Shown piece by piece: positions 641-57,750 of a stretch of 64,000 nt of DNA (position 1 is its first letter; every line of letters begins with the position of its first letter). Both the position numbers and the translations under genes were made by a program. Under the pieces are notes generated by a model. It was not told the DNA's origin. It made no database searches and was given only the letters and a program-made list of their open reading frames with translations. This stretch comes from Macrocystis pyrifera. Taxonomy: Eukaryota > Sar > Phaeophyceae > Laminariales > Laminariaceae. Location: assembly GCA_031763025.1 (NCBI GenBank), contig JASSKH010000017.1, forward strand, positions 4,220,041 through 4,284,040, read 5' to 3'.

Positions 641-774
641 CCTACTTCCCATTCCTGACCCTCTCCTCCCCCCCCCCTCCGCACACACCAGCCTCTCACC
701 CGTGCAAAACCACTACGCTGCTCCCCTGCTAGTTGTCATTCCTAGTCCCCCCCCCCCCCCCCCATATATTATAC

Positions 775-1345
775 ATGGATTGGGTTGGCGTCGGTTGGCA
801 ACGACACTGTAAAACATGCCGCTCACTACGTGAGCTAGACATCCAGGGTACCGTTTTTTTTTTTTGTTCTTGTCTTTTTTTTTTTGGCGGTCGCCCACAG
901 CTGGTCGTCTAGTTAGTTCATTTGTGCGAAGTAAAGATACTTTACTCTGCACAAGGGAATTGATCGTATCACGTAGTGTTCAAGGTACGGCACCCAAGAG
1001 GCAGTTACATAGTACTCCTATTGCTGTCTCTGGAAGTGGCCACACCGGAAATTAAACTAACTCATTGAAGCTGTCATCCATATGCAAGTCCGCCTCACAA
1101 GCGGTTCGTAGTAGGATGCAGCTCACCCTTCGTGCGACTCGCCGGGCACCTCGCGGCGCTTCGTGCTTGGTGCAAGCAATGTCTGCCTGGTCGGTGAAAA
1201 CCCGACGTGCTGCGTCCCGGCATTGTAGGGATGCGAGGGTCTATGGTCATACGACTACGGCCATGCATGAGATCGAGTACATCTCTCCTATCGAGTACAC
1301 CCCCAACTCCCATCCTACCCGATTACGACCATGCATGATAACGAG
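775..1345 (+). mobile_element. SINE-like element, near full length (reference copy)
   Basis: Best complete copy. Blocks in order: TTGGGTTGGCGTCGGTTGGC; CTCACTACGTGAG hairpin; T-rich tract; CCACAGCTGG; GGCACCCAAGAGGCAGTTAC; TGGAAGTGGCCACACCGG; GTCATCCATATGCAAGTCCG; CGACTCGCCGGGCACCTC; CGGCATTGTAGGGATGCGAG; CATACGACTACGGCCATGC; ATCGAGTACAC then C-rich. The last 80 bp resemble the LINE 3' end. Confidence 0.85.
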
Positions 1346-1434
1346 TACACCCCTCACTCCCCCTCTATCCACGCGTACACCTACCTGGCACTCGTGCACA
1401 ACCACTATCTCCCCCCCCCCCCCCCCCGCCCCGA

Positions 1435-1580
1435 TTAGCAAAAAGTTTCTATGTAATATATGGAAACAACGCAATGAGCGCACAATTGTTGGAGGTGTCT
1501 CTATTAGGAGAAAGAACGGTGCTCCGTCTCGAAAGGGATGCGTGGTCAATGGTCAAATGACTGAGGCAAGCAACAAATGA

Positions 1581-1612
<32 letters not shown>
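1435..1612 (+). mobile_element. LINE 3' fragment with C tail
   Basis: Matches the last 150 bp of the LINE at 8.4-11.4 kb (AGCAAAAAGTTTCT... to AACAAATGAGTG) and ends in a run of about 29 C. Confidence 0.85.
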
Positions 1613-1613
<1 letters not shown>

Positions 1614-1829
1614 TTTCCCATTCCTACCCCTCCCCCCCCGCCCGCCCAACCCCCATCCCCACCTCCACTCCTACCCCCCGCCCTCTCCGAATACACCAGC
1701 CTCTCACCCCGTACAAAACCACTTGTACGTCAACCCCCACTACCCACTCCCCCTATCCCCCCCCCCCCCCCCAATTCCCATTCCTACCCTTCCAACTCCC
1801 CCCCCCCGAAAAAGGTGAAAAGTTACTAC

Positions 1830-2190
1830 AGTAGTAAGAACAGGATGTGTTGGAGGAGGTGAGAAAATAGACGAATGCGATATGGAGAAATTTAGCACAC
1901 TAGATAAAAAAACAGAATAAAAAAACGATCGCTGTGATAGGAGATAGATGGTGGCAACAGGAGGCGAAACCGGAAAAGATGGGATACGGTACGCAGGCAA
2001 AACCAAATCAATGTAACATCTGAGGACGAAAAAAAAAAAAAAAAAAAAAACGGAAATCCCCAAAACTACTTGGACGTTGTCTCCATTAGGAGTAGGAGCG
2101 ATGCTCGGTCTCGAAAGGCGTGCGTGGTCAATGGCCGAATGACTTAAGGCGAGAAAGAATTGAGGACGCCTGCCGCCGCCCCCCCCCCCC
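1830..2190 (+). mobile_element. LINE 3' fragment, decayed
   Basis: Similar to the LINE from the GGAGGAGGTGAG.../GATAGATGGTGG region through the GGAGTAGGAGC and GCGTGGTCAATGG blocks, ending in GAATTGAGGACGCC and C-rich sequence. Confidence 0.7.
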
Positions 2191-2299
2191 CGCCCCCCTC
2201 AACCCCCCCTCCCGCTCCTACTCCCCTTCCTCCCCATCCCGCGCATGCACCTGAATGAACCCCATCAATCAAAATAAATGCTACAATCTGTCCCCTCTC

Positions 2300-2488
2300 T
2301 CACCCGTGCAACAAGTGCGGGACGAATCCCTTAAGGGGCAGGCGACACAGCGGGCCCTTGGACACTTCGGCGGCGTCTAGGATGACGATTTCGGAACAGT
2401 GGTCGCGGCCGTTGACTAGGATGCTGGCGATGTAGCCAGAGTCCTCGTCGGCGTCGGGCTTGGCTCCCTTGCGAGGGATGAAGGTCGG
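2300..2488 (-). CDS. Carotenoid oxygenase exon 13 (C-terminal)
   Basis: Acceptor CGCCGGCAG. Encodes [20 protein letters not shown]... to GFVPHLLHG and a stop codon. The last His is the fourth iron ligand. Relatives usually continue for several residues, so the end is slightly short. Confidence 0.92.
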   Translation of the reverse strand, partial: PTFIPRKGAKPDADEDSGYIASILVNGRDHCSEIVILDAAEVSKGPLCRLPLKGFVPHLLHG

Positions 2489-3524
2489 CTGCCGGCGCGT
2501 ACGTATAGATCGTGTCAATTGTGTTTTATAAAAAAAAAAAAGGCGACAAAAAAAAAAAAAACGCTGGGCGATTTTGAGTATTTTGTTTTCGGGAGAATCA
2601 AAAGAGAACAAAGAGGAAGGAGGTGTTAATAGAAGAAGACGAAGATATTGAATGGAGTCCACAAAAGAAAAAAGAAAAATGAATGAGTCACATCATACTA
2701 TGGCCGAATTCTGACTTTTTTTTGTTATTCGGATCTTCCTATTAGTAGGGCTCGAGCACCTTTGTGAGGCCACGTACTCGCTCATTCGAGTGTTAATGTG
2801 AAAACAGCAAAATCATATCCTAGCATAAAGTATAACATAGAATAAGACCACACCACGGTATAGAATAGGATCACACCACACCACACCACACCGCACCACA
2901 CCGTATCATACCCACACATATCATACCATACCATACCCACACCATACCACGCAACACCATACCATACCCACGCTGCACCACACCATACCATACCATACCA
3001 CACCATACCATACCATACCATACTACACCATACCAAACCATACCATACCATACCATACCGCACCATATCATACCACACCATACCCACACCACACATACCA
3101 TACATCATACCACACCATACCACACCACACCATACCGTACCACACCAGACCATACCACTATCGTACCATACCGTACCACATCATACCATACCATTCCAAA
3201 CCACACCATACCATACCCACACCATACCACACCACGCCACACCACACCACACCACACCACACACCATACCCCACCCCACCAGACCGTATCAATACCATAC
3301 ACACCTCGCCCAAAAACTCGTGCGAATCGGGCAGCCACCTCTCGCTGGTGCCTTCCACCGTGTCGATCTTAACTACTCCCTGTACAGGACACGCCTCGGG
3401 GCCCTCAGACGAACCGCAGCCCGACCATATGTAGCGGTGCTCCTGACACGAGACCTGATTGATGGGCGCACAGTGTCAACAACAATAGAACAGTACAAAG
3501 AGGTAGGTGGGGGGTGGAGGGGGA

Positions 3525-3616
<92 letters not shown>

Positions 3617-6600
3617 GTACTCATTATCACGCATGGCCGCAATCGTATGACCATAGCCCCTCGCATCCCTACACTGTCGGGGTGAAGGTCGTCGGACTAT
3701 CAACGACAAGGCAGACATTCCTTGCACCAAGCGCCATGAGGTGTCCGGCGAGTCACACCAAGGGTGAGCTGCATCCTACTAATCGTCGCTTGTGAGGCAG
3801 ACTTTCGGCACCTCGTGCGTGCTTTCATGCATAAGGATGACAGCGTCGCAAAACGTTTTTTTTTTTTTTTTTTTTTTCTTGCGGTGTGGCCACTTCCAGA
3901 GACAGCAAAGGGTATATATATATGCTATGCACCTGCCTCGTGGATGTCTGACACAGCTATGCGATACGAACATTCCCCTATTACGGGGGTCCATAGTTAA
4001 CAGGACCAAATATTGTTAGTAAAAATAGGTAAATATATAGGTCTTTATGTATACCACAGGTCCTATTAACTATGGACCCCCGTAATAGTGCGGAATTAAG
4101 GGTTCTCTACCCCGCACAAAATGGCCTACAGTAAAACGATCACCATCCATGGTGACCGCCAAAAAAAAAACTACCATCTCTTGGTTGTCTAGCTCATGTA
4201 GTGATTGGTGCGTCTTACAGCGTCGTTGCCAACCGACTCCAACATGTACAGGTGTGCGGCGGGGGGGGGGGGGGGGGGGGGGGGGGGGTACTCATGTATG
4301 CGTGGGCTTAGTTGTAAATGCCATAGAGCCTCGCATCCCTACAATGCCGGGACGGAGCACGTCGGGTTTCCACCGACCAGGCAGGCATTGCTTGCACCAA
4401 GCACGAAGCGCCGTGAGGTGTTCGGCGAGTATCATAGCGTGAAGTGTGAGCTGCATCCTATTGCTGAGAACCACCCGTGAGGCCGGCCTCCATATGGATG
4501 ACGTCTTCGAACGCATCGACTTGTTTTCTGGAGTGACCACTTCCAGAGACAGCAATGGGGTTACCGTGTAACTGCCTCATGGGTGCTTTACCACAAACGC
4601 TACGTGATACGACCAATCCCCTTTTGCGGAGTTGAGGTTCTCCACCCGGCACGAAATATCTAACTCGACCGCCAGCCGCGGCTACCGCCAAAAACAAAAA
4701 AAAAAAACGGCACTCTGGTTGTTTAGCTCACGTAGTGAGAGAGAAGCGTGTTTTACAGCGTCGTCACCAACCGACGCCAACCCAACCTATATGTACCAGG
4801 TACATAATATCGGGGGGGAGGGGGGGGGGAGGTGGGTTGGCGTTTATATGCGAGTATGTGTGGATTAGGGTGGGTGTGCGTGTGGGTGTGGGCGTGAGTG
4901 TGAGTGTGTGGATGGGTGGTACGTACGTGAGTGTAAGTGAGGGGGGGGTAGGCGGATGTGGGTGGGTTGTTTGGTGGATGGACGGATAGCACATCACCAA
5001 CAATAAACGCATCCACCCATCCATGCATCCATCCATCCATCTCTCCATCCATCCCTCCATCCACCCATCCATCCGCCCACCCACCTACCACGCACCCATT
5101 CCTCCACCCATCCATCCATCCATCCATCCATCCATCCATCCATCCATCCATCCATCCATCCATCCATCCATCCATCCATCCATCCATCCATCCATCCATC
5201 GCATGTCCCACCTTGGGGTTCACAACCGGGAAATCCACATATCCGGGGTACACAGGCTTGCAGTCAACGACGGACCCCTGTGGAGACGACGCCTCCAGCC
5301 GGTACCGATTCAACCTGTTCGTCGGTGTTTTCGAGAAATCTACAGAGGCATCGATGCCGTCGTTTTTCAGGGGGGGAGGGGAGTTGGAGTGGAGGTAGGG
5401 GGGGGGGGGGGGTACTCAATATCATGCATGGCCGTAGTCGTATGATCATAGACCCTCGCATCCCTACAATGCCGGGACGGAGCGCGTCGGGTTTTCACCG
5501 ACCACGCAGACACTGCTTGCACCAAGTGCGAAGCGCCGTGAGGTGTCCGGCGAGTCACATGAAGGGTGAGCTGCATCCTACTAACTAAGAACCGCTTTAG
5601 AGGCGGGTTTTCTTGCTTATGTATGACAGCATCAATGAATTGATATACTTTCTGGTGTGCGTGGGGGCAGGGCGTACTCATCCGTTGCTTGCCTTCGGTC
5701 ACTTGACGTATTGACTACGCATGCCTTTCGAGACGGAGCACTGTTCCTACTCCCAATAGAGACACCTCCAACAGTTGGACCCGCTCGTTACGGTTCTCTC
5801 TTTCCATATAGAACACAACTGGTGGGTTGTTTTCGCAAAGGCTTACGTATCCCCTTCCTGTTTCGCCGCCTGTGGCCACCATCTATCTCCTAGGATAGCG
5901 AGGGGGGGGGGTGTACTCATTCGTCGCTTGTCTTCGTCAATTTGCCGCTGACCACGTATCCCTTTCAAGACGGGAGCACCTCCCGTTCCTACCCCTAACA
6001 GAGACAACTCTGCAGTTGGACCCGCTCATTGCGGTACGCTTTTCCCACTACATTTTCGAGCATGTTTCTGTTCTTCGCTTCGCCATATCCCCTCGTGAGG
6101 GTTTCGCCTTCTGTGGCCACCATGCCATCATATCTCCAGGACATACGAAAATAATCATTTTCTCGCTACCATCTAGTATACTATGAATTTCTCCATGTCA
6201 CGGGCTGAGGGGGGTGTGGTCGATGTCATGCATGGCCGTAAGTCGTCTGACCATAAACCCTCGCATCCCTACAACGCCGGGACGGAGCACGTCGAATTTT
6301 CACACCAAGCGCGAAGCGCCGTGAGGTGTTCGGCGAGTCGCATGAAGGGTGAGCTGCATCCTACCGAGAACCACCTGTGAGGCGGACTTGCATGTGGATG
6401 ACAGCTTCAGTGAGTTGATTTACTTTCCGGTGTGGCCACTTCCAGAGACAGTAATGGGAGTACCATGTAACTGCCTCGTGGGTGCCTTACCACAAAACAC
6501 TATCAGATACCTGGTACGTGACACGACCATTCCCCTCGCGCGGAATACAGATTCTCCGCCCCGCACAAAATGATCTACAACTCGATCGCCAGCTGCGACC

Positions 6601-7995
6601 GACCTCCAAAAACAAAAACAAAAAACAAAAACAAAAAAACGAAAGGCGGTGCCCTGGTCGTCTAGCTCACGTACGACTGAGCGGCATGTTTTACAGTGTC
6701 GTTGCCACAACCGACGCCAACCCAACCTATGCATAATTAGCGGGGAGGTACACAACGACGAAAAAAAGGTGGATGCAGAACTATCTCGTCGAGGCCTTCC
6801 CGTAGGCGCATCGCTCGGCAGAAGCACCTTCCCGGCTGTCGGGGGGAAAATCAGGCTGGAAATTCGCCCCACCAGGGGTGTGTGAAACCAACTCGTGACG
6901 ATGCCGTTCACGTGGTATGTATTTATCTCTCTACACACATGGTCTTGTCTTTTAACTTCTGGAAAAAAAAAAAAAATGACCCCACACTATCACCAAGCAG
7001 CTTTTTTTTCTGCAATAGGGTTTTTACCTGCGGTCCTCTCTCACCTCACGAAAATTCTTGGAAAAAAAAACCGGATGGTCTATTATGTAAAGTTCGCGCG
7101 GCTCAAAAGGCATGTTTCTCGGGTTGTACATGTACTTGCAGGTGTACAGAGCCGGCACAGCAGCTCATAACGGCAAGCTCGGGTTTTTAGATGTTCTGCA
7201 TGATCTAGATAGGGCCCGTCCAACGTATGGGACACTTTCTTTCCGCCCTGCAACTCCCACAGGCGGCAACAGGCGCGACTCACCAACCGTGTCCCATGCG
7301 GGTAGGTTCGGATCGCCCTCGTTATCAAGGATGAGGTAAGACGCCTCCACAAGATCGACCACCACCTGGGAGGGTCACAGGGAGAGGGAAAAGGGGAAGG
7401 GAAGGGAAGAGAAGGGCAGGGAAGGGAAGGGGAGGAAACGAGAGGAAACGTGGCGAGAGAAGATTGAAAAAGAACATAAAAATCACGATCACAGGAGGAC
7501 GAAAAAACAAAGAACACCCAGGAAACGGAAACAACCAACCTACCCTGTCCGGAAATAAAAGGACTGTTCGGTCTAGTATTAAGGGCCCATCTTATCGAGG
7601 ACTTTCGGTTCTTTTAATTTGACTTGATTTTTTTTTCCTAATTTAATTTGTACCTGATTGAACGAAATGTAGTGTTCCCCGTTAAGATGGGCTCTTATTC
7701 CGGGCTGTTTCGATTTCCTTTTTGTTTGACAATGAATGCGCCGTTTCCCGATAGGATACAAACACGTTTTTTTTTTTTTCGAAATCCAATCGAAAATCGT
7801 TGGAATTGAAATTTTATTTCCAAATAACGAAAATTTAGTGTTCCCCGTTAAGATGGGCTCTAATATTAATAGTACGAACACCTAAGTTCTCTTCACATTC
7901 CCGGACAGAGTTGATACAACCTAACAACGCAAGGCGAAGCCATGACACAGATCGAACGAACCTCGAGCAACCAGTACGCGCACGGCATGTGAGCC

Positions 7996-8045
<50 letters not shown>

Positions 8046-11000
8046 GTATCACGTGGTGTGTATATGGTAAGGCACCCACGAGGCAGTTACATAGTAAACC
8101 CATTGCTGTCTCTGGAAGTGGCCACACCAAAAAATTAATTAATTTCATCGACGCTGTCATCCATATGCAAGAAGATCCGCCTCTATATAAAGCGGTTCGT
8201 AGTAGGATGCTCACCCTTCATGCGACTCGCCCAACACCTCACGGCGCTTCGCGCTCGGTGCAAGCAATATCTGCCTGGTCGGTGAAAACCCGACGCGCTC
8301 CGTCCCGGCATTGTAGGGATGCGAGGGTCTGTGGTCAAACGACTACGGCCATGCATGATAATGAGCTCACACCCCCCCACACACCCCGCCTACCGGGACT
8401 ACATGTATGCGCAGCGGACGTAGGAACTACGGATCACAGTCTAACATGGACAGTCAGTCAGCAGACGAGAGTTATCGAACATAGACGAGGTAGGAAATTG
8501 TACAGATGGAGAATAAATAAACAAGAAGTAAAAGAGAAACGGCAAGAGTTCCAAGAAGAGATAGCCAAAAATGCAGAGAAATCTTCCGAGCTATTGGAAA
8601 TAATAGGAACAACAAGGAATGATATAGAGAGGGAAAACGCAGGAGCTAGGAAAATAGAAGGATGGGAGCAGTTGGTCAGGACCACAGCAAGTAAAGCAAT
8701 AGAGGAGAAGTTGATAGTATGCAACAGAGCAGTAAAATGGTGGCATGAGGAAGTGAAAGAGGCTATAAGAGTAAGGAGAAAGGCGCACACAAGATATACA
8801 TCGAGCAAAACTACGACAGGATGGGAGGAATATGCTATGGCTAGAAAGAAAGTAAAAGAGATGGTAGAGAAGAAGAAGAAAGGGATATGGAAAGACCTAA
8901 TAAATAAAACGAATGAAGACTTTGAGGGCGGGATGAAGCAGATGTAGGTAGGGACAAAAGGGATACTGGGCAAACAAGCAGGAGAGACAGACACGGCAAT
9001 AGCTACCTCAAGAGCACAGAACAGTAAAATGGTAAGTACTTCGAAGGGGAAAAGGGAAGTACAAGTATTGTATAGCATTGCCGTAAGCTAGGAACACCCA
9101 CAGCCAACGAAACGTTCGACGCAGAATTCGAGAAGGAAATCAACGCGTGGGCAGAGGCGAACGTAGGTACATCAGAAAGGGAAGACAGTGGTTCGGGAGG
9201 GTTACAGAGAGAGTTCACAAGGGAAGAAGTACAGAAGTGTGTAGCTAAACTTAAGAATAGAAAGGCAGCAGGGGCAGACCAAATAGTGAATGAATTTATG
9301 AAGTACGGGGGAGAAGGGATGCTTACCATGATGGTTATGTTGTATAACTGGATATGGAAAAACGAGTACGCACCTAGGAGGTGGAGAGAAGGAGCTGCAG
9401 TAAATTTATTCAAGAAAGGAGATAAGGCTGACCCGGGGAACTATAGAGGGATAACGCTACTAAGCCCAGTAGGCAAAACATGTTGTAAGATTTTGAACGA
9501 TAGAATGGGAACGATGATGGAGAAGGAAGACAAAATAAGCGAAGGGCAAGCAGGGTTTAGGCCAAACCGTAGCTGCGTACACCATGTGTCCACCTTAGGT
9601 GAAATAATCCAAGGTAGGAAAGACGCGGGACTAACAACGTACTGCTGTTTCTTTCTATTACGGAGGACCATAGTAGATAGGACCAAATTTTGTTAGTAAA
9701 AATAGGGAAATATATAGGTTTTTATGTATATCGTAGGTCCTATTAACTATGGACCCCCGTAATAGATGTACAGAAAGCCTACAACACAGTCTGGAGAAAT
9801 GGACTGTGGAAAAAACTGTGGTAAAAATGAATGAGAGGAAAGAGGAAAGATGTGGAGAATGATGAAAAAGATGACGGAATGTGCGAGAAGTGCTGTGATG
9901 CTGGACGGGGAAATATCGATGTACGTTGATATTTTACAAGGAGTTGCACAGGCATGTACGTTGTCACCTAACCTATTCGAGATATGTATTAACGACCTGA
10001 TAGTAGCAGTCGAAGCAGCAAGGCAGGGAGTCACGGTAGGGGAAGATGCGGTGTCGGGATTGATGTTTGCGGATGACTTCGTGGGGATATCAGAACGCCC
10101 GAAGGATTGCAGAAACAAATAGAGAAGGCGTTAGAACACACTAGGAGAAGGAGGGTGACGGCGAACGTCAAGAAATGCGCAGCAGTTGTTTGAAATGAAG
10201 AGAAAGGTAAACCCGGTAAATTCCGGTTGGAAGTGGGGAGCAGATGAATAGCCGATCGTGGACCAGTACGAGTATACGTACCTCAGCGTAGAGATCTAAA
10301 AAGACTGCTCTTGGGATACACATATAACAAAGGTAATAGGAAAGGGTAAAAAGCACACGTAGGCAAGATGGATGCGATCCTAACAGACTCGCACCTTGAC
10401 GCTAGGATTAAGAGACGTATCCTGATGAATGTGATAGTACCAAAGCTAGAATATGCAGGAGGGAGAATGGGAAGGGCACGCGAAACTGGTAACACGGTTG
10501 GAAACAGTACAAAACAACAGCAGATAAAAAGAATCCCCAAGATGCTCAAGTACGATTACTAATACAGTATTAGGAGCAGTACTGGGAATGCACCCACTCA
10601 ACACAAATAGATGTATGAGAAAGTTGAAACGACAATATAAAGTAAGAAACATGCCAAAAATGGGGTTGCCAGCCATAGTTGATAAAGCTGTACGGGAGAA
10701 AGTAACAAAAGGGCGAGCTGGAATAAGGTGGGATAGCGTAGTTGAGAAAGTATGGAAGGATGTAGAAGGGAACCAAGAAGAGGTAATGTCCGCCGGGAAG
10801 TTTGGGAGGTACAAGGCACAAGCAGAAAAAAGTATAGAAATGAGGGAAAGGCTAGCGTTAAAAAATAAGGTGGAATCGGAAAAACACTTTGGGATACGCG
10901 GGATTGAGGGAAGGAATAGGAATGAAAACGTATTTGCACGGCCCGATGGACTTCGCCAAAACGCCGAAACTGCGATTTCGTGTAGGTGACCTAGACCTGC

Positions 11001-13931
11001 CAGAACGACGAAAGAGGTACACCAGGTACCAGTAGCCGGGAGGAGGAGGAAGTAGATGCACAGATGTGCCCGTGTGGCAAAGCAATAGACAGTAGAACTC
11101 ACATAGTAGGAGAATGTGGAATGTACAAGGAGGAACGGGATGTGTTAGAAGAGGAGATGAGGGAAATAGACGAATGTGATATGGAGGAGTTATACACTAG
11201 ATAGCAGCGAGAAAACGATCGCTATCCTAGGAGGTAGATGGTGGCCGCAGGCGGTCAAACAGGAAGTGGATAAGATTAGCAAAAAGTTTCTAAGTAATAT
11301 ATGGAAACAACGTAATGAGCGCCTAATTGTTGGAGGTGTCTCTCTAAGGAGGAGGAACAGTGCTCTGTCTTGAAAGGGATGCGTGGTCAATGGTCAAACG
11401 ACTAAGGGAAGCAACAAATGAGTACGCCCCGCCCCCGCCCCTCTCTCCCTCCCTCCCGCCACGAGCACCCGCCTAACCCTCTGGTCGGTAAACAATCCCC
11501 GTTTGATGCTCATATAAGACTATATATGGTTACTATATTCACGACCATAGTGGTACTTGTCTCGCGCCAGGCCGGGCCCACAAAACACACAGGAGCAAAA
11601 AAAAAAAAAAACGACGGCATGAGAGAGGCGGGGTGGGGGGGGAGGTGTACTCGATAGGAGAGATATGCTCGACATCATCCATGGCCGTAGTCGTATGATC
11701 ATAGACCCTCTCTCATCCCTACAATACCGGGACGGAGTACGTCGGGTTTTCACCTACCAGGCAGTCAATGCTTGCACCAAGCGCGAAGCGCCGTGAGGTG
11801 TTGGACGAGTCGCATGAAGGGTGAGCTGCATCCTACTAAGAATCGCTTGTGGGGCGGACTTGTATATGGATGACAGCTTCAATGAGTTAGTTTAATTTCC
11901 GGTGTGGCGACTTCCAGAGACAGCAATGGGAGTACTATGTAACTGCCTCTTGGGTGCCGTACCTTGAACACTACGTGATACGATCAATTCCCTTGTGCGG
12001 AATAAAGGTTTTTTCACGTCGCACACATGATCTAACTCGACCACCAGCTGTGGCCGATCGCCGAAAAAGAAAGAAGTGGAAAAAAACCGCACCCTGGTTG
12101 TCTAAGTAGTGAGCGGCATGTTTTACAGTGTCGTTGCCAACCGACGCCAACCCAACCTATCTGTAATAAGGGGGAGGTGGGGGGTGTACTCATATTATGC
12201 GTGGCCGTAGTCGTATCACCATGGACCCTTGCATCCCTACAATGCCGGGACGGAGCACGTCGGGATTTCACTGACCAGGCAGACATCGCTTGCTGCAGCA
12301 AGCGGGAAGCGAAACGTGAGGTGGTCGGCGAAATCGTGTGAAGGGGTGGTGAGCTGCATCCTACCAAAAACCGCTTGTGAGGCGGACTTTCTTGCGCGTG
12401 GATGGCAGCGTTGAACTGCAGTAGCAGTTGATTATTTTCTGGACTTCCAGAGTGAGGGGGGCGGTGGGGGGGGGGGGGGGGGCAACACACGCACCTCCCC
12501 AGTTTTTTTCGTCGTCGTAGGCGTTCGCCAGGTGGAAGCAGAAGCCGGCGGGGATCGTAATCGTCTGCAGAATAGGCGAACAGAGATGGAACGCAAAACG
12601 GACAAGATAAAACAGGAGGGAAACCGGGGGGAAGAGGGAAATAAAAGGGGAGGGAGGGAGGGAGGGAGGGAGGGAGGGAGGGAGGGAGGGAGGGAGGGAG
12701 GGAGGGAGGGAGGGAGGGAGGGAGGGAGGGAGGGAGGGAGGGGCTATATAACGAAAAAAAACAGAGAACACAGAGTTATGTTGCGAACAAAAACAAGAGC
12801 AACAGCCAATACAAGGACAAGAGTGCACTGTATTGTATTGTACAGCGTGAGCAGTGCGCGTACCCAGTCCGTATACATCTGCTCAACACCAATAAAAACA
12901 AAAAAAACAACACTCAACATCGATAATACGGAATGGACCACCCAAAAACACCAACACCAACACCAAAACCACCTATTACGGAGGGCCATAGTAAACAGCA
13001 CCCACGGTACACACAAAATTCTACATATTTCCCTATTAATACTAACAATGTTTGGTCCCATTAACTATGGTCCCTCGTAATACCACCAACGCACCAACAA
13101 CTATTACGGGGGACCATAGCAAGTAGGACCAAATATTGCCAGTAAAAATAGGGAAATATATAGGTTTTTGTCCGTACCGTAGGTCCTATTCACCATGGTC
13201 CCCCGAAATACCACCACCACAACTACCCAGAGGCCCCCCACCGCACCCCCCAAAGGCCAACACCACCCCGCCACAGCCACCCTCCCTCTGCCAAAAAGTC
13301 GTCACCTTCATCTCCTTCGAAGGGTCTCGCGGCACGAGGTAAAAGTTGGCCTGCTTGCTGTCCCCCTCCCACTTCAAAGAGCTCCCCATAGTGGCCAACC
13401 CCAGCACCCACATCAGAGGCTTCACAGACACAGGCCCCTGCGGTGATTTAAAAAAAAACATGCACATTACGGGGGACCATAGTAAACGGGACCAATTATT
13501 GCTGGTAAAATAGGTAACTATGTAGGTTTCTTGTATGTACCATAGGTCCTATTTACTATGGCCCCCCGTAATATATGTAAAAAAAAAAAAAACAGTTTGG
13601 GACAGATAGGAGGCACAAGATAAAGTTGGGAGGAGTTATGCAGGCAAATGCAAGATGCCTACCGTAGTATATACAACATACCACTGTCTCTGAACACAAG
13701 GACCGTTTGTAGTGACTTTGTAAATATGCAAAACATCTTCACATTTAGGGACAGACCGGTATGAGATACTGATACGTCAAGATATGCGCAGCATACCTAC
13801 GTATTTCAAGGTTCACTTCGGGATGTCGTTGACTTCAGATCCCGGGGGCGGTCGCGAGTCGAAAGGGGAGAACAGAGGCGTGCCTACCAGGTATGTATTC
13901 GAGCCTGTGTGAGGTTCGCTGGTGCGTACCG

Positions 13932-13995
<64 letters not shown>

Positions 13996-15720
13996 GTTGT
14001 AACGCCGCTGCTGTATGCGTGGGCGCTTTCGAATTTGAGAGGAAGTAGTGTGGGTTAATAGCGGCAAAAAGGGTGCTAAATAAGTCGAACAATTTTCATT
14101 TTTCGGAAGGCCGCGCCGCTCTCTCTCGACCAGACCTGGTTCTCCGAAAACATCTTTGTTCGATATTGGCAGTATAAGCTTCCTGTTCTGGAAAAAATAT
14201 GGTATTTATCACGGGGGACCATAGCAAATAGAACCAAGTGTTGCTAGTAAATTAGGTAAATATGTAGGCTTTTGTGTGTACCGTAGGTCGTCTTTTACTA
14301 TATAGCCCCCCGGTAATAGCGTGTTTCGCGCTGTATACTTTTCTCACGGTTCTGTCGCCGCCGTGACAAACGTTTATTTTGCCTACCGCAACGCACGGAA
14401 CGAAACAATGCATGCGATAGATGCACCCGCACACGCACACAGCACGCTCACAGTAGATCAAGCCGGACTGCAGCAAGTGCTACTGAAAAACGATCGCACC
14501 GCCCTTCACGGTACAACCTGGTAAAGTACACACCACGTGCCAGGTAGAACGCATTATTACGGGGGACCATAGTAAACAGGACCAAACATTGTTATTACGG
14601 GGGTCCATAGTTAACGGGACCAAATTTCGTTAGTAAAAATAGGTAAGTATATAGGTTTTTATGTATACCATAGGTCCTTCCTGTTAACTACGGACCCCCG
14701 TAATAGTAAAAAATAGAGAATTATATAGGTTTTTTGTGTGCACCGTAGGTCCTATTTAATATGACCCCCCGTAACAGTACGTACGTACGTAGAATCTACA
14801 TCAGCAGCACATTGATAAATCATAGAGAATATATCTTCGGCATCCCTCCGGGACCAGTGATTCATCTATTTACGGGGGGGCCATAGTAAATAGGACCAAA
14901 TTTTGTTAGTAGTAGAAAAAATAAAAATAGGGAAATATATAGGTTCTTGTGTCTACCGTAGGTCTCATCTACTACCGTGGTCCCCCGTATTAGACAATAA
15001 TATGATACCGCTACTTATTAATGGTAATATTGCTATTAATAATACTACTATTACGGGGTACCACAGTAAATAGGACCTACGGTACACACAAAAACCTATA
15101 TATATCCCCTTTTTTTACGAACAATTTTTGGTCCTGTTTACTATGGCCCCCCGTAACACCGATATCAATACCGTAACTATTACAGGGGTCCATAGTTAAT
15201 GGGACCAAATTTTGTTAGTAAACATAGGAAAATATATACCGGTAGGTTTTTATGTATACCATAGGTCCTATTAACTATGGACCTCCGTAATACCGGAAAT
15301 TGGCGTTTCGGACCACCCTGGGGGGCAAGCACTCCTACCTCCCCAGGCCCGCACTCCGACCGACCGGCCTTCCCCAGCGCTCGGATGTTCTGGTTCGTCC
15401 AAGTTCTCTGGTCCAACCTCTTCTTGAGTCGGTTCTTCGCGGAGTACATCACCACCACCACCACCAACACCACCAAGACCACCATATGTATTTTTTAAAT
15501 CCTCCGGCGGATTGGTAAAAATAAAGCTTAAGTTCACCGCACTTCCACGTTCGAAATTGGTGTCGTGTGTCAAATTAAAACCACAGCTCCCGTTGCAACA
15601 CCAGCACCAGCACCAACAGCACAGCACAGCAGCAACATCTTCGCCCGCAACGCACAGATCCGGATGGCGGTAGACACACAATTAAAACAAGAAAAAAGAA
15701 AAACACTCGCGCTACCCCCT

Positions 15721-15751
<31 letters not shown>

Positions 15752-16996
15752 CCCCCCCCCACCTCCCCCCCCTCCCCAACCCCCCCCCCCCCCCCCCCAG
15801 AATACATGTGTGTTATTCACATGAAACCGTTCTTCTACTCGTCGACATCCAGCACATCCAGCGTCCGTGCCGATTCTTCAATCCTAGAGAGCTACGAGTA
15901 CCAGCTCTGCGGTCACAAAACTACGAGACAGAGATGGTACCAGTACATCGCAAAGCGGTGCTCGCAAGCCGAGCAGACAACGCAAACCAAATGCCGCCGA
16001 CCTGGGTACGACAAGCACAACGTGCACACGCCGGCATGCAGCAGTCCTACGGTTCTCCTCACCCTATAGAAGACGTAGTGGCTGTCCGTCACAGCGAAGT
16101 CGTGGAGGAAGCCGCCGACCTCCTTCAGCAGGCGAGACTGCAACAGCTCAAAATCTTTGCCGTATTCATATATCCTCGTCTTTCAAAATTCATCCAAGGT
16201 TTTACATCCATTTTTCGACAGGGAGGGGAGGGGGGGGGAGGGGAGGGAAGGGGATGGGTGGGGGTGTGCATATCAATGTCATGCATGGCCGTAGTCGTAC
16301 GGCCATAGACCGTTCCATCCCCGTATGACAATGCCGGGACGGAGCAGGTCGGGAGGTTTTCACAAGAAGAGTACTTTTTCTCAGATGAGGGGATGGGGGG
16401 GGGGGGATCAGGTACGCATCGGACAGATCATCGATCCCCCACTTAACGATCCAGCTCATTCAGGGCAGATATATGTATCCCTGATCCGTATGATCTGTAT
16501 GATCTGTATGATCTGTATGATCTGTATGATCTGTATGATCTGTATGATCTGTATGATCTGTATGATCTGTATGATCTGTATGATCTGTATGATCTGTATG
16601 ATCTGTATGATCTATCTCATGTTGCCGGGCGGGAGCCGTATAATCTTCACCGATACCCATAGATCGTTCAGGGAAAAAAAAAATCCCAGACCTGCCAAGG
16701 AACATGCATCTGTGTGATCTAGCTAATCATGTTGCCACCTGGGTGCCAGAGAATCCGCATCATCTAGCGGGAACCACTTGTTTCCTGGGTCGTATCTCTA
16801 CCGTACAAATCCTGCACGACATTTCCAACCCCAGGTTGGGATCCAGATGATATTTTGTCTCTCATGCGTGTGTTTTGTAGGTGTTTTTGTGAGTGGAAGA
16901 GGAATAGGGGGATGGAGAGGGGAGGGGAGAAGGTAGGACCATTAGCAGGGGGGTGGAGGAAGGGGGGTAACCATACTCAAGGGTGATAAGGAGGGG

Positions 16997-17034
<38 letters not shown>

Positions 17035-19522
17035 GGCGAGCGGCGGCACGAAATCGACCAACCGAAAAATACAAATCACATCATCCCCTCTGGCGTCCGA
17101 GATATTGTGAGAACCATTCCCTAAGAGGCGTTCGTTCTTGGAGTCGGTCCGGAAGATGCGCGGAACAACCCCCGTCCTCCCGCACCAATGGATAATAGCA
17201 ACTCACAAAATGGTAGGAGAATGTGAACCTGTACAAGGAGAAACGGGATGCGTTAAAAGAGAGGAGACGAGGAAAATGGACCAATGTGGCATGGAGAAGT
17301 TTGGTACACTACAAGAGATAGTAGCGAGCAAGCAATCGCTATCCCAGGAGATATAGATGGTGGCGACAAGCGGCGAAGCAGGAAGGGGAGAAGATTTAGC
17401 GAAACGTTTTCAATGTAGTTTACGGAAACAACGCAATAAGCGCCCGATAGTTGGAGGTGTCTCTATTAGGAGTAGGAACGGTGCTTCGTCTCGAAAAGGA
17501 TGCGTGGTCAATGGTCAAACGACTAAATCAAGCAACAAACGAGTACGCCGCCCCCCCCAACGTCAAGCGCCCCATCCCCTCCCCCCCCAAAAAAACAAAT
17601 TGACGAGTGGGACAAAATCGATCAACCTAAACGACATATTATTCGCACCATCCGCTCACCTCCTGCATGTTGTGACAACCAAACCCTACGAAGCGTTCGT
17701 TCTTAGAGTCGATTCGGGGATGCGCCGAGAAGATGGGACGGTTCTCGTCGATTGTCTCCCCAAGGAAGGTCTCTCCGAAAGTGTCCAAGCTCTTAGGGTC
17801 GAGCCGGTTGGAGACGAGACGGGGTAATGTTGTTTTTCAGGTGTTACGTGTTGTTGGGTTTGGTACAGCTGTTGGGTGTGGTGTGTGGTGGGCACGAAGT
17901 GGCGAAAATGGACGTTGGGGGTTACATCACGTGGTGGGCGAGGTGGGTGGGTTCGGTGGTGTTTGGTGTGTGTTGTGTGGCGTTGGTTGGGTTGGTTGGT
18001 GTTGGTGTGGGGTTGGTTGGTGGTGGGTTTGGTTGGTGGTGGTGGGGGGGTGTGTGGGGGGTTGGTGTTGGTGTTGTTGGTGTTGGTGTTGGTGTTGTGT
18101 GGTGTTGGGTGTTGGTGTGGTGTGTGTGGTGTGGGTGTTGGTGGTGTTGGTGGGGTGGTTGGTGTGGTGGTGTGGTGTTGGTGGTGTGTGGTGTTGTGTG
18201 GTGTGTTGGTGTTGGTGTTGGTGTTGGTGGTGTTGGTGTTGGTGTTGTTGGGTGTGGTGGTGGTGTGGTGTTGGTGTTGGGTTGTTGGTGTTGGAGTTGG
18301 TGTTGTTGGGGTTGGTGTTGGTGTTGTGTGGGTGTTGTTGGGTGTTGGTGTGTTGGTGTTGGGGTGGTTGTTGTTGGTGGGGCATGGTGTTGGTACCGTT
18401 CCAAGAAAAAGGAGGCGTAAGAGACCGTACGATTGTGGCGATTAGGGGGGAAAGGAACCGCTTTAGAGGCGGATTTTCTTGCATCTGGATGACAGCTTCG
18501 ATTCATTGTTTTTTTTTTCCTGGTGTGGCTACTTCTAGGGACAGCGATGGGTTTACTATGTAACTGCCTCGTGGGTGCCTCACCATATACCAGGTACACA
18601 CTACGCGATACGATCACCCCCCTTGTGCGGAGTTGACGTTCTCCCCGGAAAAAATGATCGAACTCGACCGCCAGCCGTGGTGGCCGCCAAACTAAACAAG
18701 ACAGAACAAAAACGATGCCCTGGTTGTCTAGCTCACGCAGTGAGAGGCGTGTTTCACAGCGTCATCGCGAATCGACGCCAACCCAACCTATATATATATA
18801 TCTATATCTATATACCACGTATGTAATATAGCCGGGGGGGGGGGGGGGGGGGGGGGGGGGGAAAATTAAGCCTTGCCAAGAGAAGAAACAGAGGAACGTC
18901 ACACTGCGGTGTCTTAAGGCAGGCTTGGCCGAGGCACCGCAAGCCTGGCACTATTACAAACTATACTTTAGCGATTCGTATACGCAGTATTAATAGTGGT
19001 TAGTGCCGGTTGAGTAGTGCTGGGTGCCCGCAACAGTGCCTGCTATCGTCTGGCAGTCTGGCAGCGTGCGGAGTGACTAGTGCCGGTTGCCGCTATTGTG
19101 CCGCTATTGTTGGCGGGCGCATATATACCGGGTCTGTAGAGGGACCATGGCTTCACGTTAATCGAACACCCACCACCCCCATGGGCATAAAAAGACAAAA
19201 GCCTCAGAGCTCCAACAACACAAAAACCGTCTTCATTTTCTTCGTTCCAACCACCACAAAAAAAAAACGTACCAATCTTAAGTGGTTTGTTGCCTAAAAA
19301 GGAGAGTGCCATTCTTTAAGGGGGGTAATTTTCTTATTTCACGGTAGGGTTACCAACAGCGTTGTTCCCATTGGACCATCGGAGGCGTTTTCTGGTATGC
19401 CCGACTTGACGAGCACGTTGGCAACTACACCAGAGTTTCTTGAACATTTGTTTGGCAGTGCTATCTTATGTGGCGAAAGGGACAACGCAATATGAGGGAG
19501 AAACCCGGGGAGGGCGCGCACT

Positions 19523-19578
<56 letters not shown>

Positions 19579-22500
19579 TGACGCACCAGCGGCCCCCCTG
19601 GAAGGTTTCCGAAGCCCCTGTACAGCTGTTTTCCCGCCTTTAGCTCTCGCTTGTACCCTTTGGTTTGCACCTGTGTAACGGCACCAAAAAAGGAAACAGA
19701 AAAACCGGCAGGCAACGGGCGTTTCAATATTCTTCACAAAGCCCGGTGGGTAGGAAGTTGGTGCTGCTTGTAATGAAACCGAAGAAAACACACAGAGAGG
19801 GACAGACAAACAGAGAGAGAGACATGGAGAAAACCAAATGAATACATACCGGCACCCAGTACATACCGTAGACATTTTGTAGGCCCAAAGACACACAGAC
19901 AGACAGACACACCGACACAAAGGCACACAGAACACATGGGCGTTGGAGAGAGAGAGAGAGAGAGAGGGACGACGCTGTGCGCACAAGAACATCGAGAGAG
20001 CAACGCTTGGCTAGATTTCCGCCGACCTTCACGGTAGTGTCTCACCAACAACAGCGATGATAGCGACCAGACATGGCCAACTCCAACTTCGATCTCCTTC
20101 AGCCACTTGACTTCACTGAGAACATAAACATATACACATGTATGTACATACATCATGCACGGTAAAATAAAAACATAAAACTTGATTCAGTGTACTTTAC
20201 TGTAACTTAACTAAACACAACTATAAAATTTAACATCATTTTAAGTAAACTTACTGTAGTACACACACCTGTCACAGCAGTTACGCTCAAATTGCAAGCT
20301 CAAATTAAAACTTTTACTAAAATGAAACAATGGGCGAAACAAAAAAAAACAACGATGAGAACAGAAAAAAAGACGAACAACATGCCAGTATCGCACAAGC
20401 GTGACACCCTGCCTCAAAGTCGGCTCGGACGAAACGCTCACCCATCACTCACGAATCTGTTCCTGTAGTAAGCCCCCTCCTCCGAAAAGCTAATCGCCGC
20501 CACCATCCCGTCCCCGTCGAAAGGATGCTTCACCAAATCATCGCCGATCTGACGGCGTTGCACGAGTAGAATCGCACATACGGTGAGGAAATAGGTAGGG
20601 GGGGCGGAGGAGGGGGGTAGGGGGGGGGGGGGGGGGGGGGGGGTACTCATTTGTTCCTTGCCTTCGGTCATTTGACCATTGACCACGCATCCCTTTCGAG
20701 ACACGGAGCACCGTTCCTACTCCTTAATACAGACACCTCCAACAGTTGGGGCGCTCACTACGTCGTTTTCGTAAATTACATCTATATATATTACTAAATT
20801 TTATCCACTCCCTGTTTCGCCGTCTGCGGCCACCATCTACCCTCTAGGATAGGGATCGTTATCTCGCTGCTATCTAGTGTTCAAACTTCTCCATGTAACA
20901 TTCGTCTATTTCCCTCACCTCGGGGGGGGGGGGGGGAGGGGGGGGGAAACCGCGGAAGGAGATGGGGGGTAAGGGAGGGGAGGGGGATGAGGAGGATAGG
21001 GGGAGGAGGAAGGGGGAGAGCAGGCGGGGAGGCGGGGGGAGAGGGGGGACGACACGGGAGTGGTGACGTCGCTACTGTTGACGTTCAAAGCAACGATTGT
21101 ACCACATCTGCTGGGATTCTTTTCCCCTTCTGATTTTTGCATGGGGCGTCGTGATAAAAGCGGACGACCACGAGCGTTTCACGAAGTGTGGATATGGTCG
21201 CAAAAGCAGGACGGAGATGGATCTACTATCGTGTAGTCATGATGGCACGGCGCGGCGCGTGTCTTTGCCGCCGGTCGGACGCTCCAGCGCCTTCGTTGTA
21301 CGCAACAAACGGTGCACTTCCTTGTATAGAACACGCAACTTCCCGTCGAAAGAGCGGTGCATGTCGGCACGGTAAGTCTTGATATTTAGATAGCGTACCT
21401 TGAACTTTGCCGGTCCGTTCTTGAAGAAGGTTCCCTCGATGTCTTTCGGGATGGAGCCCTCGCTCGGCTCCATGAGGTACTGGTCCTCCACGTCCACCGT
21501 CGCGTATCCCTGCCGGTATCAATCATCATCATTGGCACTGACATTGTCGCAATAGCATTCTCGGCATCATCATCATTAAACTTCAACCTTGCCATCAACA
21601 TCATCAATATCATCGCCATCATCACCATCATCGGCATCATATTTATTTGTCATCAGCATGATGATCATCATCATCGTAAAGACGATCATCATCATAGCTA
21701 TCGTCACCATCAACATAGCTATCGTCGTCGTCCTTGATCGCCACTTTCATCATCACCACCGCCATCTCAAGATTCACTATTAATAGCGTCATCGTGGTAT
21801 TACAGGGGTCCATAGTTAACAGGATCAAATATTGTTAGTAAAAATACCTAAATATATAGGTTTTTATGTATGCCATAGGTCCTGTTAACTATAGACCCCC
21901 GTAATAGTCGTCATTACCATCATCAAAGCCGGTCCTAACGAGGAAAAAAAAAAACGAAATAAAAAACGAAGAGGAGAACTAAAAGAGTACCTGGTACGTG
22001 AGTTTTACTGGCCACATAAAAAAAATACAAGTAGAGATCTCGATACCTCCGTTTTCACATTTCGTTTTTTCAAGTCCCAGAGGACTTAAAAGAAACGAAA
22101 TGGGTGCCAAATAAACGAAATATGGGTTACCCAGGGTCGAAGAGGAACACACAGGAGGAGCTCGAAGCGTTGGGATGAAGTTCCGATAAAGTTTCTACGA
22201 CCGGTTGGCAAGCGCGCGATGGCCGAGGTAGTGCTCGTGGCTGCCACGCGGCTTGTCTGCTGACTGCGCGAGCATATATGGGTAGGGAATCACCAAGGGG
22301 TGCCCTCGCAAGAAATCGGGGAATCAGGAAGTGGCTGTGGCGGTATATTTTTCGACATGAGTTCCACACAACATTCAAACGTCTGCCATAGAACAGCGAT
22401 GGCCGATACACAAGTTCTAGAGATTTCCGGAGGGAGCGGGTTGGACCACGAGAACGGCTTGCTGTGGAGGGAGCCTCGCGTGTGCGAGTTGTGTCTATCC

Positions 22501-36646: not shown

Positions 36647-38617
36647 GTGCGTTCTTTTTCAGTTGGAAGGGGAAAAAATAGTCAACTACTACTACTCGGT
36701 ACCTGACATGTTATTTTCGCGTCTTGTGGGCCGATTCCTATGCGGTTATTTGTTTTTTTCCGATCCAATTTGGGCTTTGATTGTCACCGATTGTGAGTGA
36801 TGCTCAAGGTGCAGGCAGTATGCTTTGTCGTCTATGAATGTATCCACGAGCTGGACCAGTGAGTGGTGTTGGAAAATTGAAGCAGTACGGTAATCCTCTT
36901 CTTGTCTATTAATTTAATTAGTGTGCGGCCTTCGGCTGTTTGAAGGATCGGTTATTATGAAATAACGGTTCCATCAAAAAGGCTTTGCCAGGGTTCGTGC
37001 GAGACGTTTGGGCGTTGGACTGGACCAAGCAGCGCCAGGAAAAGCTGCTGTGGGGCACAACTAAGCGCGCATGGCAAGCGAAGAGAACGTCGCGCGTAAG
37101 AGGGGAAAACACGGGCAAAACAGAAACGGTGCCCCTTCCAACAGGTATGTAAACTTGTGGACTACAGTAGTATGAACATTTCATCAGGGTGTTCGATGTT
37201 CTGGAGGCTTGAGTTTCTGTTGTGAGCGATGTACCCCTCGCCGTTTCACACGATGCTAACCCATGATACCTGCACCTCCGAGGCTCCGTGTGTCGGGAAC
37301 GGACAATGAAGTACTTACTACTGGAGAGTTTTGCTTGATGTGCCCGGTAGGTTCTATGATTTTTGCACGGGTAAAGAGGTTCAAGATACGAGTACCACGC
37401 TGTAAAACGTGTGCGACAGTACAGCAAGGGCGGGGTTGCGCGAGCTGTTTGTTGCGCTTCCGCGCCTTGCGTCGTAATTGCGTCGACACCTCCTGGTATC
37501 GCTTTTTCAGTAGATGAAGTACTACCTGGTACAGTATTATTGCCTAATTCAGCTGGTCCAAAGGTTTAATCCTTATCACTCACCTTCGATCCCGTCCGAA
37601 TTCGTTGTGGGTCTATTTCTCGTCGGCGACTCACTTGTCCTCCGGTTCTCGTTGTTCGTACAGTATCCTGTACTCGTATATCGGGAGGGTAGATTGTCCA
37701 GTTCTCGAAATGTAAAGCTAGTATTCGCTCATGCACAATACGATGTATTGCAATATGCGTGTGATGCGTGCGATATACAAGTTCAGCAGTGATATGCGAC
37801 AGTGGTTAATATTTCGTTCTTCTTGGCCGTGAAACACGTGGTAGATGGCCGACTCCCGAGATGCTGATCCCGCCTTTGTACGGCTCACAATCTTGGAAAT
37901 CTTAGGTAACGGCTGATTGCTGTTCTCCTTCCACTAGAGTGCAGCAGAGAGCTTCCGACAGCTTGACCCCCACTCATACTCTAGGCCCTTTGCACACAGC
38001 TAGTACGGATAGATACGGCACATCATTGCGTTTGTAGTATCTGATCACCTCGACGCCGTAACGGTAGACAGTAGTCGTCGATCTATATTTAAGTACTGTG
38101 TATGGTTCATGAGGACAAGATTGAATTGATGTCCGTTTTCCTGCGGACCTTTTTCGTTTTCCTTTAGAAGTGTACCCACGTTGTTGGGGACTAACTACTG
38201 TAGTTGGATTTGGTGTGAGACAATGTTTGCAGCGGTGAAATCATTTTTTCTTTGTATCGTGGCCGCCGCTCTGTACGTACCGGTAAATATACCAGGCACC
38301 AGGTATACGGTATACGCCTTCGTGACAAGTGGTACTGAAAGGCCCATTTTCGACCTATAGTACATCCAGCATTACCTGGTACATATTGTACAAGGTAAAC
38401 AATATTCTGTTCGTGCCCCTTGCTGCGAATCGAGTGCAAAATTGGATCAGCATCCATCATCTGCGTGGCTGTTTGTACCGAAGTAAGTAACCCCTTTAGA
38501 AGATTACAAGTTTACCCAGGCTTCGAAAGGACGAACTGTTGGAACTCATATTATATCAGTATCTGGTACTTAGTCCAGTATACACCTGGTATCAGGTATG
38601 TATTTTCCACTACACTA

Positions 38618-38721
38618 TTCCGGGGGACCATAGTAAATAGGACCAAATATTGTTAGTAAAAATAGGGAAATATATAGGTTTTTGTGTGTACCGTAGGTCC
38701 TATTTACTATGGTCTCCGTAA
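38618..38721. mobile_element. MITE (TTACGGGGG family)
   Basis: Copy starting TTCCGGGGGACCATAGTAAA and ending GGTCTCCGTAA. Confidence 0.85.
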
Positions 38722-38784
38722 TATCTACTCTAGTAGTACTTCGAAATATACCGGTAAGGGTTAGGAGCCCTCCTTCACCCCCCC

Positions 38785-56399: not shown

Positions 56400-57750
56400 G
56401 ACAAAACTGGGGAGGTGCGTGTGTTGCCCCCCTCACTCTGGAAGTAGCCACACGAGAAAATAATCAACTAGTTCGACCCTGCCATTCATATACTAGAAAA
56501 TCCGCCTCACATGCGGTTTTTGGTAGGATGCAGTTCACCACCCCTTCACGCGCCCCGACCACCTCACGTTTCGCTTCGCGCTTGCTGCAGCAAGCAATGT
56601 CTGCCTAGTCAGTCAAATCCCGACATGCTCCGTCCCGGCGTTGTTTGCATTGTAGGGATGCGAGGGTCTCTTCATGGTCATACGACTACGCCCATCCATG
56701 TCATTATTAGATGATGAGTACACCCCCCCCCCCCTAAAAATATTTTGGCGTCGGTTGGCAGCGGCACTGTAAAAAAGCATGCCGCTCAGTACTTGAGCTA
56801 GACAACCAGGGTACCCTTTTTTTCTTATTTTTCTTTTCGGCGGTCGGTCACAGCTGGTGGTCGAGATATAGATAATTTGTGCGAGGTGAAGAACCTTTAC
56901 TTTGCACAAGGGAAATGATCGTATCACGTAGTAATCAAGGTAAGGCACTCAAGAGGCAGATACATAGTGCTCCCATGGCTGTCTCTGGAAGTGGCTACAC
57001 CGGAAATTAAACTAACTCATTGAAGCTGTCATCCATGTGCAAGCCCGCCTCATAACAGCGGTTCTTAGTAGGATGCAGCTCACCCTTCATGCGACTCGCC
57101 GGGCAGCTCAGGGCGCTTCGCGCTTGGTGCAAGCAATGTCTGCCTGGTCGGTAAAAATCCGACATGCTCCGTCCCGGCATTGTGGGGATGCGAGGGTCTA
57201 TGGTCATACGACTACGGCCATGCATAGATCGAGTACATATTTCCTATCGAGTACCCCCCCCCCCCCCCCCATGTTTGAGCTAGACAGCCAGGGTACCGCT
57301 TTTTTTTTGTTTTTGGAGGTCGGCCACAGCTGGTGTTCGAGGTAGATCATTTGTGCCAGGTGAAGAACCTTTACTCTGCACAAGGGAATTGATGGTATCA
57401 CGTACCAGGTAGTGTTTATGGCAAGGCACCCTAGAGGCAGTTACATAGTACTCCCATTGCTGTCTCTAGAAATGGCCTCACCGGAAATTAAACTAACTAA
57501 TTGAAGTTGTCATCCATATGCAAGTCCGCCTCACAAGCGGTTCGTAGTAGGATGCAGCTCACCCTACATGCGACTCGCCGGACACCTCACGCCGCTCCGC
57601 GCTTGGTGCAAGCAATGTCTGCCTGGTCGGTGAAAACCCGACATGCTCCGTCCCGGCACTGTATGGGTGCGAGGGTCTATGGTCATACGACTACGGTCAT
57701 GCATGAGATTGAGTATATCTCTCCTATCGAGTACACCCCCATGTTTGCGG
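56400..57750 (+). mobile_element. Array of three SINE-like elements, head to tail
   Basis: Copies at about 56420-56735 (5'-truncated), 56745-57270 and 57275-57740. Each ends in (A/C)GAGTAC plus a C run, and the next starts within or right after that run, as if insertion had targeted the previous tail. The last has an ACCAGGTA insertion near 57402. Confidence 0.85.

Follow-up and report, generated by a model that had tools for sequence, protein, structure and literature searches.

Results

A long interspersed nuclear element (LINE) and a non-coding element of ~0.5 kb in the genome of the giant kelp, Macrocystis pyrifera, very probably share one machinery: copies of both are C-tailed, and they land mostly in runs of C and in one orientation. 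The 2 elements are described here from a 64,000-nucleotide stretch of DNA (assembly GCA_031763025.1, contig JASSKH010000017.1, positions 4,220,041 to 4,284,040, forward strand), the whole of which we call the window, and from searches of the kelp assembly (537,376,219 bp in 223 contigs) for exact patterns and candidate copies, which gave all genome-wide counts below. The assembly has been published as PacBio based, with 537 Mb in 223 contigs, the largest of 26 Mb (PMC10498591). Random regions were represented by a sample of 20 segments of 10 kb each (200 kb), taken at round coordinates from seven large contigs, and labels such as L005, L048 or L079 denote genomic stretches that hold copies. 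The searches yielded at least 3822 candidates for the short element, at least 2663 for the LINE 3' end and at least 496 for the LINE endonuclease region; the larger number of 3' ends fits the presence of many 5'-truncated LINE copies. Flank analyses used the best 40 of the short-element candidates, which were 94–96% identical to the query.

Shared 3' end and C-tails

As a sequence-only reading of this DNA had proposed, the LINE and the short element have a 3' end in common. It comprises the last ~70 bp. Alignment of the typed majority 3' ends covered almost their full length and scored 56, compared with 12.3 on average and 27 at best in 5000 dinucleotide shuffles. The bodies appeared to be unrelated, in that LINE positions 9766–11358 of the window, which are not the whole LINE, and short-element positions 775–1190 aligned with a score of 20, and the best of 30 shuffles reached 26. 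With its 3' end shared and the compared rest unrelated, the short element can probably be classed, from its sequence, as non-autonomous and LINE-dependent (SINE-like, after short interspersed nuclear elements), and the LINE would move it in trans. The 2 ends have diverged from each other in loops and spacing. Folded singly, both typed ends give a similar predicted three-stem outline, without demonstrated compensating changes; the z-scores were -2.39 for the LINE (5 of 200 shuffles as good) and -1.08 for the short element (31 of 200).

Both elements end in poly-C. We located 3'-end pieces in the window by BLAST and sought a C-run in the 60 nt that follow the expected end. All 31 LINE and SINE-like pieces were followed by a C-run of at least 5 and 22 by one of at least 7; among random 60-nt windows of the sample, such runs occurred in 6.7% and 2.0%, respectively. 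The 31 pieces represent at most 30 copies, two of them belonging to one, and the earlier count of more than 20 C-ended copies in the window is thereby borne out. Genome-wide, the exact LINE end GCAACAAATGAGTACG was found 4017 times (1996 + 2021) and was directly followed by CCCCCC in 2719 cases (1317 + 1402), or 68%. Conversely, of 157 C-runs of 8 or more on the sense strand, 33 have a LINE/SINE 3' signature no more than 70 bp upstream; of 157 G-runs, none has. The further claim, that such tails account for the majority of the long G/C runs, stood only in part: among the 69 C-runs of 12 or more that the window and the sample (L011-L030) contain, 13 are tails, 11 are targets just upstream of an element, 6 are both, and 39 have no recognised element on either side.

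Landing in C-runs

The sequence-only reading had also held that C-runs lying equally often at random ends of the copies would speak against it. The tails proved to be consistent in strand, but the copies have sense-strand C-runs at both ends, since they land in such runs, a targeting on the 5' side which that reading had missed. Among the best 40 short elements, the longest C-run within 70 nt upstream measured at least 7 in 35, and a G-run of at least 6 was present in none; 2.2% of random sample windows reached C7 in this 70-nt comparison. The exact 5' end of the short element, TATGGGTTGGGTTGGCGTCGG, had 860 + 871 matches genome-wide, and CCCCCC was present no more than 30 nt upstream of 754 of the 871 reverse-strand matches (~87%), with GGGGGG at that distance in 2 of the 871 (0.2%) and in 1 forward match. 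We did not use the forward CCCCCC count (5859), which counts single copies several times; the reverse matches, as listed, amount to about one per copy.

Similar results were obtained with merged fragments, of which 46 of 49 from window and sample could be scored, the rest being too short or near the end of a stretch. In the 200-kb sample, a run of C7 or more lay within 50 nt upstream of 8 of 17 fragments and downstream of 10, with G7 on neither side of any of them and a random frequency of 1.6%; in the window the counts were 15 of 29 upstream and 18 of 29 downstream. The preference over random windows depended on the length of the upstream run, being 0.03-fold for runs of 0–3, 0.35-fold for 4–5, 4.1-fold for 6–8, 31-fold for 9–11, 133-fold for 12–19 and 81-fold for 20 or more. 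For the LINE, C7 or longer was present within 70 nt upstream of 12 of 17 5' junctions (8 of 10 and 4 of 7 in the two sets examined). By these comparisons, both the short element and the LINE appear to be target-preferring, in the sense of a preference and not of a strict rule, and landing in C-runs accounts for some of the C-runs that are not tails.

We considered the possibility that the upstream C-run is the element's own 5' end, and rejected it: 5'-truncated copies also have the run, and it is missing where the target run was short. Since many copies are 5'-truncated, such as those beginning at 8044 behind C46 and at 1433 behind C17, the upstream run cannot belong to the element.

Insertions were also found in the tails of earlier copies. 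For twelve of the best 40 short elements, the tail of a LINE or of a short element could be recognised within 150 nt upstream, as against 6 of 1500 random windows, and 148 of the 871 reverse-strand short elements stand behind the order GAGTAC, gap, CCCC, gap, a genome-wide count made without a control pattern. At 56436–57720 of the window (forward strand), three short elements follow each other head to tail, the second and third each in the preceding C-tail. On the reverse strand, a full-length short element (11674–12170) lies in the C-tail of the copy at 12197–12389, and a 5'-truncated one (5412–5659) in the C-rich tail of a LINE 3' fragment (5673–5901, reverse strand) that is 74% identical to the window's LINE. 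Four short-element copies are clustered at 61500–62762 (forward strand), those at 61575 and 62217 behind C-runs.

Target-site duplications

Part of the copies are flanked by duplications that start in the C's and extend 4–13 nt further. These consist of the C-run plus ATGAA in the second copy of L005, the C-run plus GGCATC in L010 (an insertion in the tail of a short element), CCCC plus GGGTG in L073, and CCC plus TGYTGTACA, with one mismatch, in L076/L082. In L008 the duplication is CCCCTGGTAGTGTCT; the target here had only four C's and the 3' side reads C11GC8, so that the tail is not simply the target. L079/L085 has a clean duplication of CACGACAA (L079, 1400–1510), with only CCC nearby. 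A G-run of G44 or more is present in L079 ~60 nt upstream, on the sense strand.

Ten LINE junction pairs comprised 3 with duplicated letters beyond the C's, 2 in tandem (L007), 1 with nothing (L009) and 4 that were C-only or unclear; among eight further LINE copies, 3 were duplicated beyond the C's, L074 in C only, L077/L086 not at all, and 3 had ends outside the stretch and could not be judged. The tandem in L007 (1700–1930) consists of two 64-bp LINE 3'-end pieces, each between C-runs and GCCCTCTC, and arose either through very short insertions or through duplication on the spot.

The sequence-only reading had looked to duplications around young short copies for support, and this was obtained from a minority of them. 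Scoring covered 39 of the best 40 short elements, since the tail of L060 could not be parsed and this copy was dropped from both scores. Flank matches of at least 6 nt were seen in 6 of the 39 (L047, L053, L058, L062, L066 and L071), with 1.4 expected, a number reached in 4 of 3000 permutations of this looser-offset score; the match in L053 may be trivial, as it lies in a satellite-like stretch. A stricter score (CC plus prefix) summed to 83, against a permuted mean of 51, and 9 of 5000 permutations were as high.

Structure of the LINE

The window's LINE, at 8385–11425 on the forward strand, is a 5'-truncated copy (linker, reverse transcriptase and C-terminal region) with a short C-rich tail at 11426–11441. 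Its frame is broken in several places, and it contains a palindromic insert of ~110 bp at ~9653–9765. The broken frames match RVT_1 only below the Pfam cut-off, and less decayed copies elsewhere pass it (E 4.6e-30 in L073). The window copy is truncated before the endonuclease region; in other copies an APE-like endonuclease, Exo_endo_phos (PF03372), is predicted upstream of the reverse transcriptase (E 2.9e-11 in L074, 2.5e-07 in L031). R2 and LINE-1 ORF2 were the nearest solved structures in a sequence search of the PDB. With reverse transcriptase, endonuclease, 5' truncation and target-site duplication, the family can, as judged from the DNA, be assigned to the APE-type non-LTR (non-long-terminal-repeat) retrotransposons.

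Copies L073 and L074 have ~4.7 kb in common, and other copies reach further 5' into T-rich repeated units. In L032, L076, L078 and L080 this region, upstream of the shared start, contains repeated units with ACCGGATTTAGACATGAAATTACTCAACTAAC and T-runs, which are reminiscent of promoter monomers. A search for relatives of the reverse transcriptase in viral contigs gave 12 pattern matches, 0 of them confirmed, and Pfam found no match in nine large open reading frames of the window.

Discussion

We infer the following course of insertion. The LINE endonuclease would nick the G-strand of a genomic C:G run, and the freed ...GGGG-3'OH would pair with the C-tail of the element RNA and prime reverse transcription, so that the RNA is copied starting from the C-run at its end. 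The second strand would be cut 0–13 nt beyond the run, giving duplications of C's plus 0–13 further nt. Insertion would thus usually take place in a C-run and in one orientation, and the new 3' C-run would offer a fresh target for the next copy. The tail itself may arise by slippage during priming or may already be present in the RNA. Such a mechanism predicts four features, namely the orientation lock, the preference for long runs, head-to-tail clusters and duplications in which a few letters follow the C's; each was seen, the duplications in a minority of copies. LINE-1 has a poly(A) tail and T-rich targets, and the model for the kelp elements has C and G where LINE-1 has A and T.

A different account would accept the C-tail as real and allow little choice of target, the 5' C-run being made during or after insertion by slippage, by template switching onto another C-tail or from concatemeric RNA. 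Some LINE copies indeed have no upstream C-run. In L048, a young short element lies within another one of antisense orientation, with GACCGCC on one side and an A-run on the other; 15 C's stand upstream of it, although the host repeat shows no more than CC there in aligned copies, and in this instance the 5' run could have been made at insertion. However, the clear duplications of L008 and L058 contain only short stretches of target C's (CCCC and CCCCTCCCTCC, respectively) and no long 5' run is present, which argues that a run is not brought by the element. In L062, L010 and L047 the duplication extends past the 5' C-run into adjoining target letters, so that the run belonged to the target. 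The 12 of 40 short elements close behind recognisable tails of earlier copies also speak against this account, and we regard it as unlikely. It is likewise improbable that the common 3' end reflects only recombination or a common ancestral LINE and that the machineries now differ: the divergence of the 2 ends in loops and spacing would suit such a history, but tail, target, orientation and type of duplication are the same in both elements. Finally, homopolymer artefacts of assembly or sequencing might be suspected, as the published assembly is PacBio based and run lengths in data of this type are unreliable as to exact number. Yet the runs are strand-locked to element ends at hundreds of places (754 versus 2 of 871), are broken by single other bases and adjoin duplicated target letters, and an artefactual origin is scarcely credible.

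The size of the short element, its copy number (at least 3822 candidates) and the tail shared with a LINE would also fit an ordinary SINE transcribed by RNA polymerase III (Pol III), with a tRNA, 5S or 7SL head and a LINE-derived tail. No such head was recognised: Rfam at gathering thresholds found no match in the window, and with one young copy (L033) at E up to 5 it returned only a CRISPR repeat and an IRES (internal ribosome entry site), at chance level and far below the cut-offs; ARAGORN found no tRNA in the window, and box A/B scores in 40 copies were no better than in shuffled sequence. Moreover, all 40 short elements contain a T-run of 5–27 at about +65 to +81, and Pol III usually stops at four T's or more. 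We consider a Pol III origin very unlikely. The earlier naming of the element as a SINE is not supported in the strict sense of a Pol III promoter, and by this word we mean no more than a short element that depends on a LINE. A tRNA-like head on the opposite strand (GTCTAGCTCACGTAGTGAGC), noticed by eye, was dropped, as ARAGORN reported none and a reverse-strand box scan remained at the shuffled level.

Several observations weigh against a common C-tailed, C-run-directed machinery. Five of the 17 LINE junctions have no C7 run, namely L008 (C4), L009 (C1), L075 (C2), L077 (C3) and L079 (C3, with a G-run of G8 or more farther away). At L079 the site reads ...CCCTCACGACAA, where the primer could end in no more than a single G; that its duplication is clean all the same indicates that a C-run helps and is not required. 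The upstream run of L048, discussed above, belongs here as well. Flank matches of at least 6 nt are absent from 33 of the 39 short elements, and the evidence from duplications is modest. With 39 of the 69 long C-runs tied to no copy, there must be other sources of C-runs, or old copies were missed. For the conserved 3' stem-loop that the protein of a stringent-type LINE would recognise, RNAalifold applied to 23 sequences gave 3 pairs with no compensating change, and no intact LINE frame was present in the two long copies read, which was not a dedicated search. Exact C-run lengths in the assembly are doubtful, and runs may be misassembled.

The shared machinery that we favour allows a more speculative extension. 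Possibly, the elements form a self-seeding system: the C-tail would serve as the end from which the RNA is primed and also as the preferred target, and insertion would multiply targets and would have helped to load the kelp genome with C:G runs. Where runs are long, their recognition would perhaps depend on an unusual DNA form (G-quadruplex or i-motif) and not only on pairing with the tail. We put this forward tentatively, as a view that is somewhat more likely to be wrong than right.

Other features of the window

The first full-length short element (764–1305, forward strand) runs from an AT-rich leader to GAGTACACC and has a 17-C run directly upstream, on the target side (747–763). It is followed by a 5'-truncated LINE 3' end (1433–1583, forward strand) with C17 just upstream, also on the target side (1411–1427), and a C29 tail (1584–1612). 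The reverse strand carries a short element in three matched pieces (3617–4250), with its C-tail, a G-run on the forward strand, at 3527–3615 and a palindromic repeat of ~110 bp at 3978–4088 inside it, and full-length short elements at 4289–4800 (C28 tail, 4261–4288) and 6226–6740. Directly upstream of the 5'-truncated short element at 8044–8372 (forward strand), the target side has a C46 run (7998–8043). LINE 3' fragments are present at 17186–17546 (forward strand, with a C-rich tail) and at 20643–20921 (reverse strand, with C-runs on both sides), and a full-length short element with a C13 tail at 55086–55593 (forward strand).

The partly palindromic ~110-bp repeat, which ends near ATTACGGGGGTCCATAGTTAA... 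and is also found inside the LINE and one short element, is frequent (3978–4088, 9653–9765, 12970–13210, 14593–15292, 21798–21907, 38615–38723 and 60540–60650) and looks like a DNA element of the MITE (miniature inverted-repeat transposable element) type. Between C-runs at 505–540, 686–725, 1375–1410 and 1690–1730 we noticed by eye a repeated piece like ACACCAGCCTCTCACCCGTGCAAAACCACT that belongs to neither recognised family. Long simple arrays (ACCAT, CATC, TGATCTGTA and TGGTGT) occupy 2875–3305, 5010–5200, 16482–16613 and 17948–18394.

Comparison with known systems

In the literature searched, a scope that did not extend to Repbase, subscription papers or supplements, we found no poly-C-tailed LINE or SINE and no targeting of C-runs. 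If our reading is true, the kelp elements are a LINE/SINE-like pair whose tail and preferred target are the same C homopolymer, used with G-ended primers. They would then provide an origin for part of the long C:G runs of the genome and a natural system for priming on poly(C), with a self-feeding target preference that is not confined to rDNA or telomeres, and would allow a test of whether the composition of a LINE tail sets the choice of target.

The closest published relation is in another brown alga, Ectocarpus, where RTEX-N1_Ec32, a non-autonomous element of ~600 bp and the most abundant single family, shares its 3' end with the RTE-X LINEs RTEX-1/RTEX-2_Ec32, the origin of its 5' part being unknown to its authors (PMC12477816). 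A pairing of this sort had therefore already been described from brown algae. The 2 short elements were compared by description only, and the parts of that paper available to us contain no description of tail composition or target; for the kelp LINE, this paper alone suggests a place in the RTE-X clade. The tobacco TS SINE similarly has a 3' tail, ~100 bases long, in common with an RTE LINE, which ends in TTG (PMC3747384). Poly-C is missing among the 3' repeats of plant and green algal LINEs listed in Table 3 of the same paper, which are A, TTG, TTGATG, CATA, CA, CAA, TAA, ATT, CTATTT, CCAT, ACAATG and CTTGTAA. Zepp of Coccomyxa also forms nested LINE copies in an alga, with about one cluster per chromosome (PMC3446292), but its tail is poly-A (PMC3747384, Table 3), whereas the kelp copies are C-tailed and spread over many contigs.

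Pairing between tail and primer has been modelled for the Bov-B LINE and Sauria SINE, where a link exists between the letters of the tail repeat and the letter with which the duplication opens; the signature there is Tn-TA, unlike the C-run of the kelp elements (PMC13295347). RTE elements of Lepidoptera resemble the kelp pair in making simple repeats from tails, since their 3' tail repeats seed microsatellites genome-wide, but these are often di- or trinucleotides and the insertion is described as not sequence-specific (PMC2887409). Dong and TRAS, which insert in (TAA)n and (TTAGG)n, respectively, are like the kelp pair in using simple repeats as targets, and in these cases the repeats are described as pre-existing (PMC2887409). 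Unlike them, the kelp LINE would make its target, a dispersed C-run, as its own tail, and its non-autonomous partner would do likewise.

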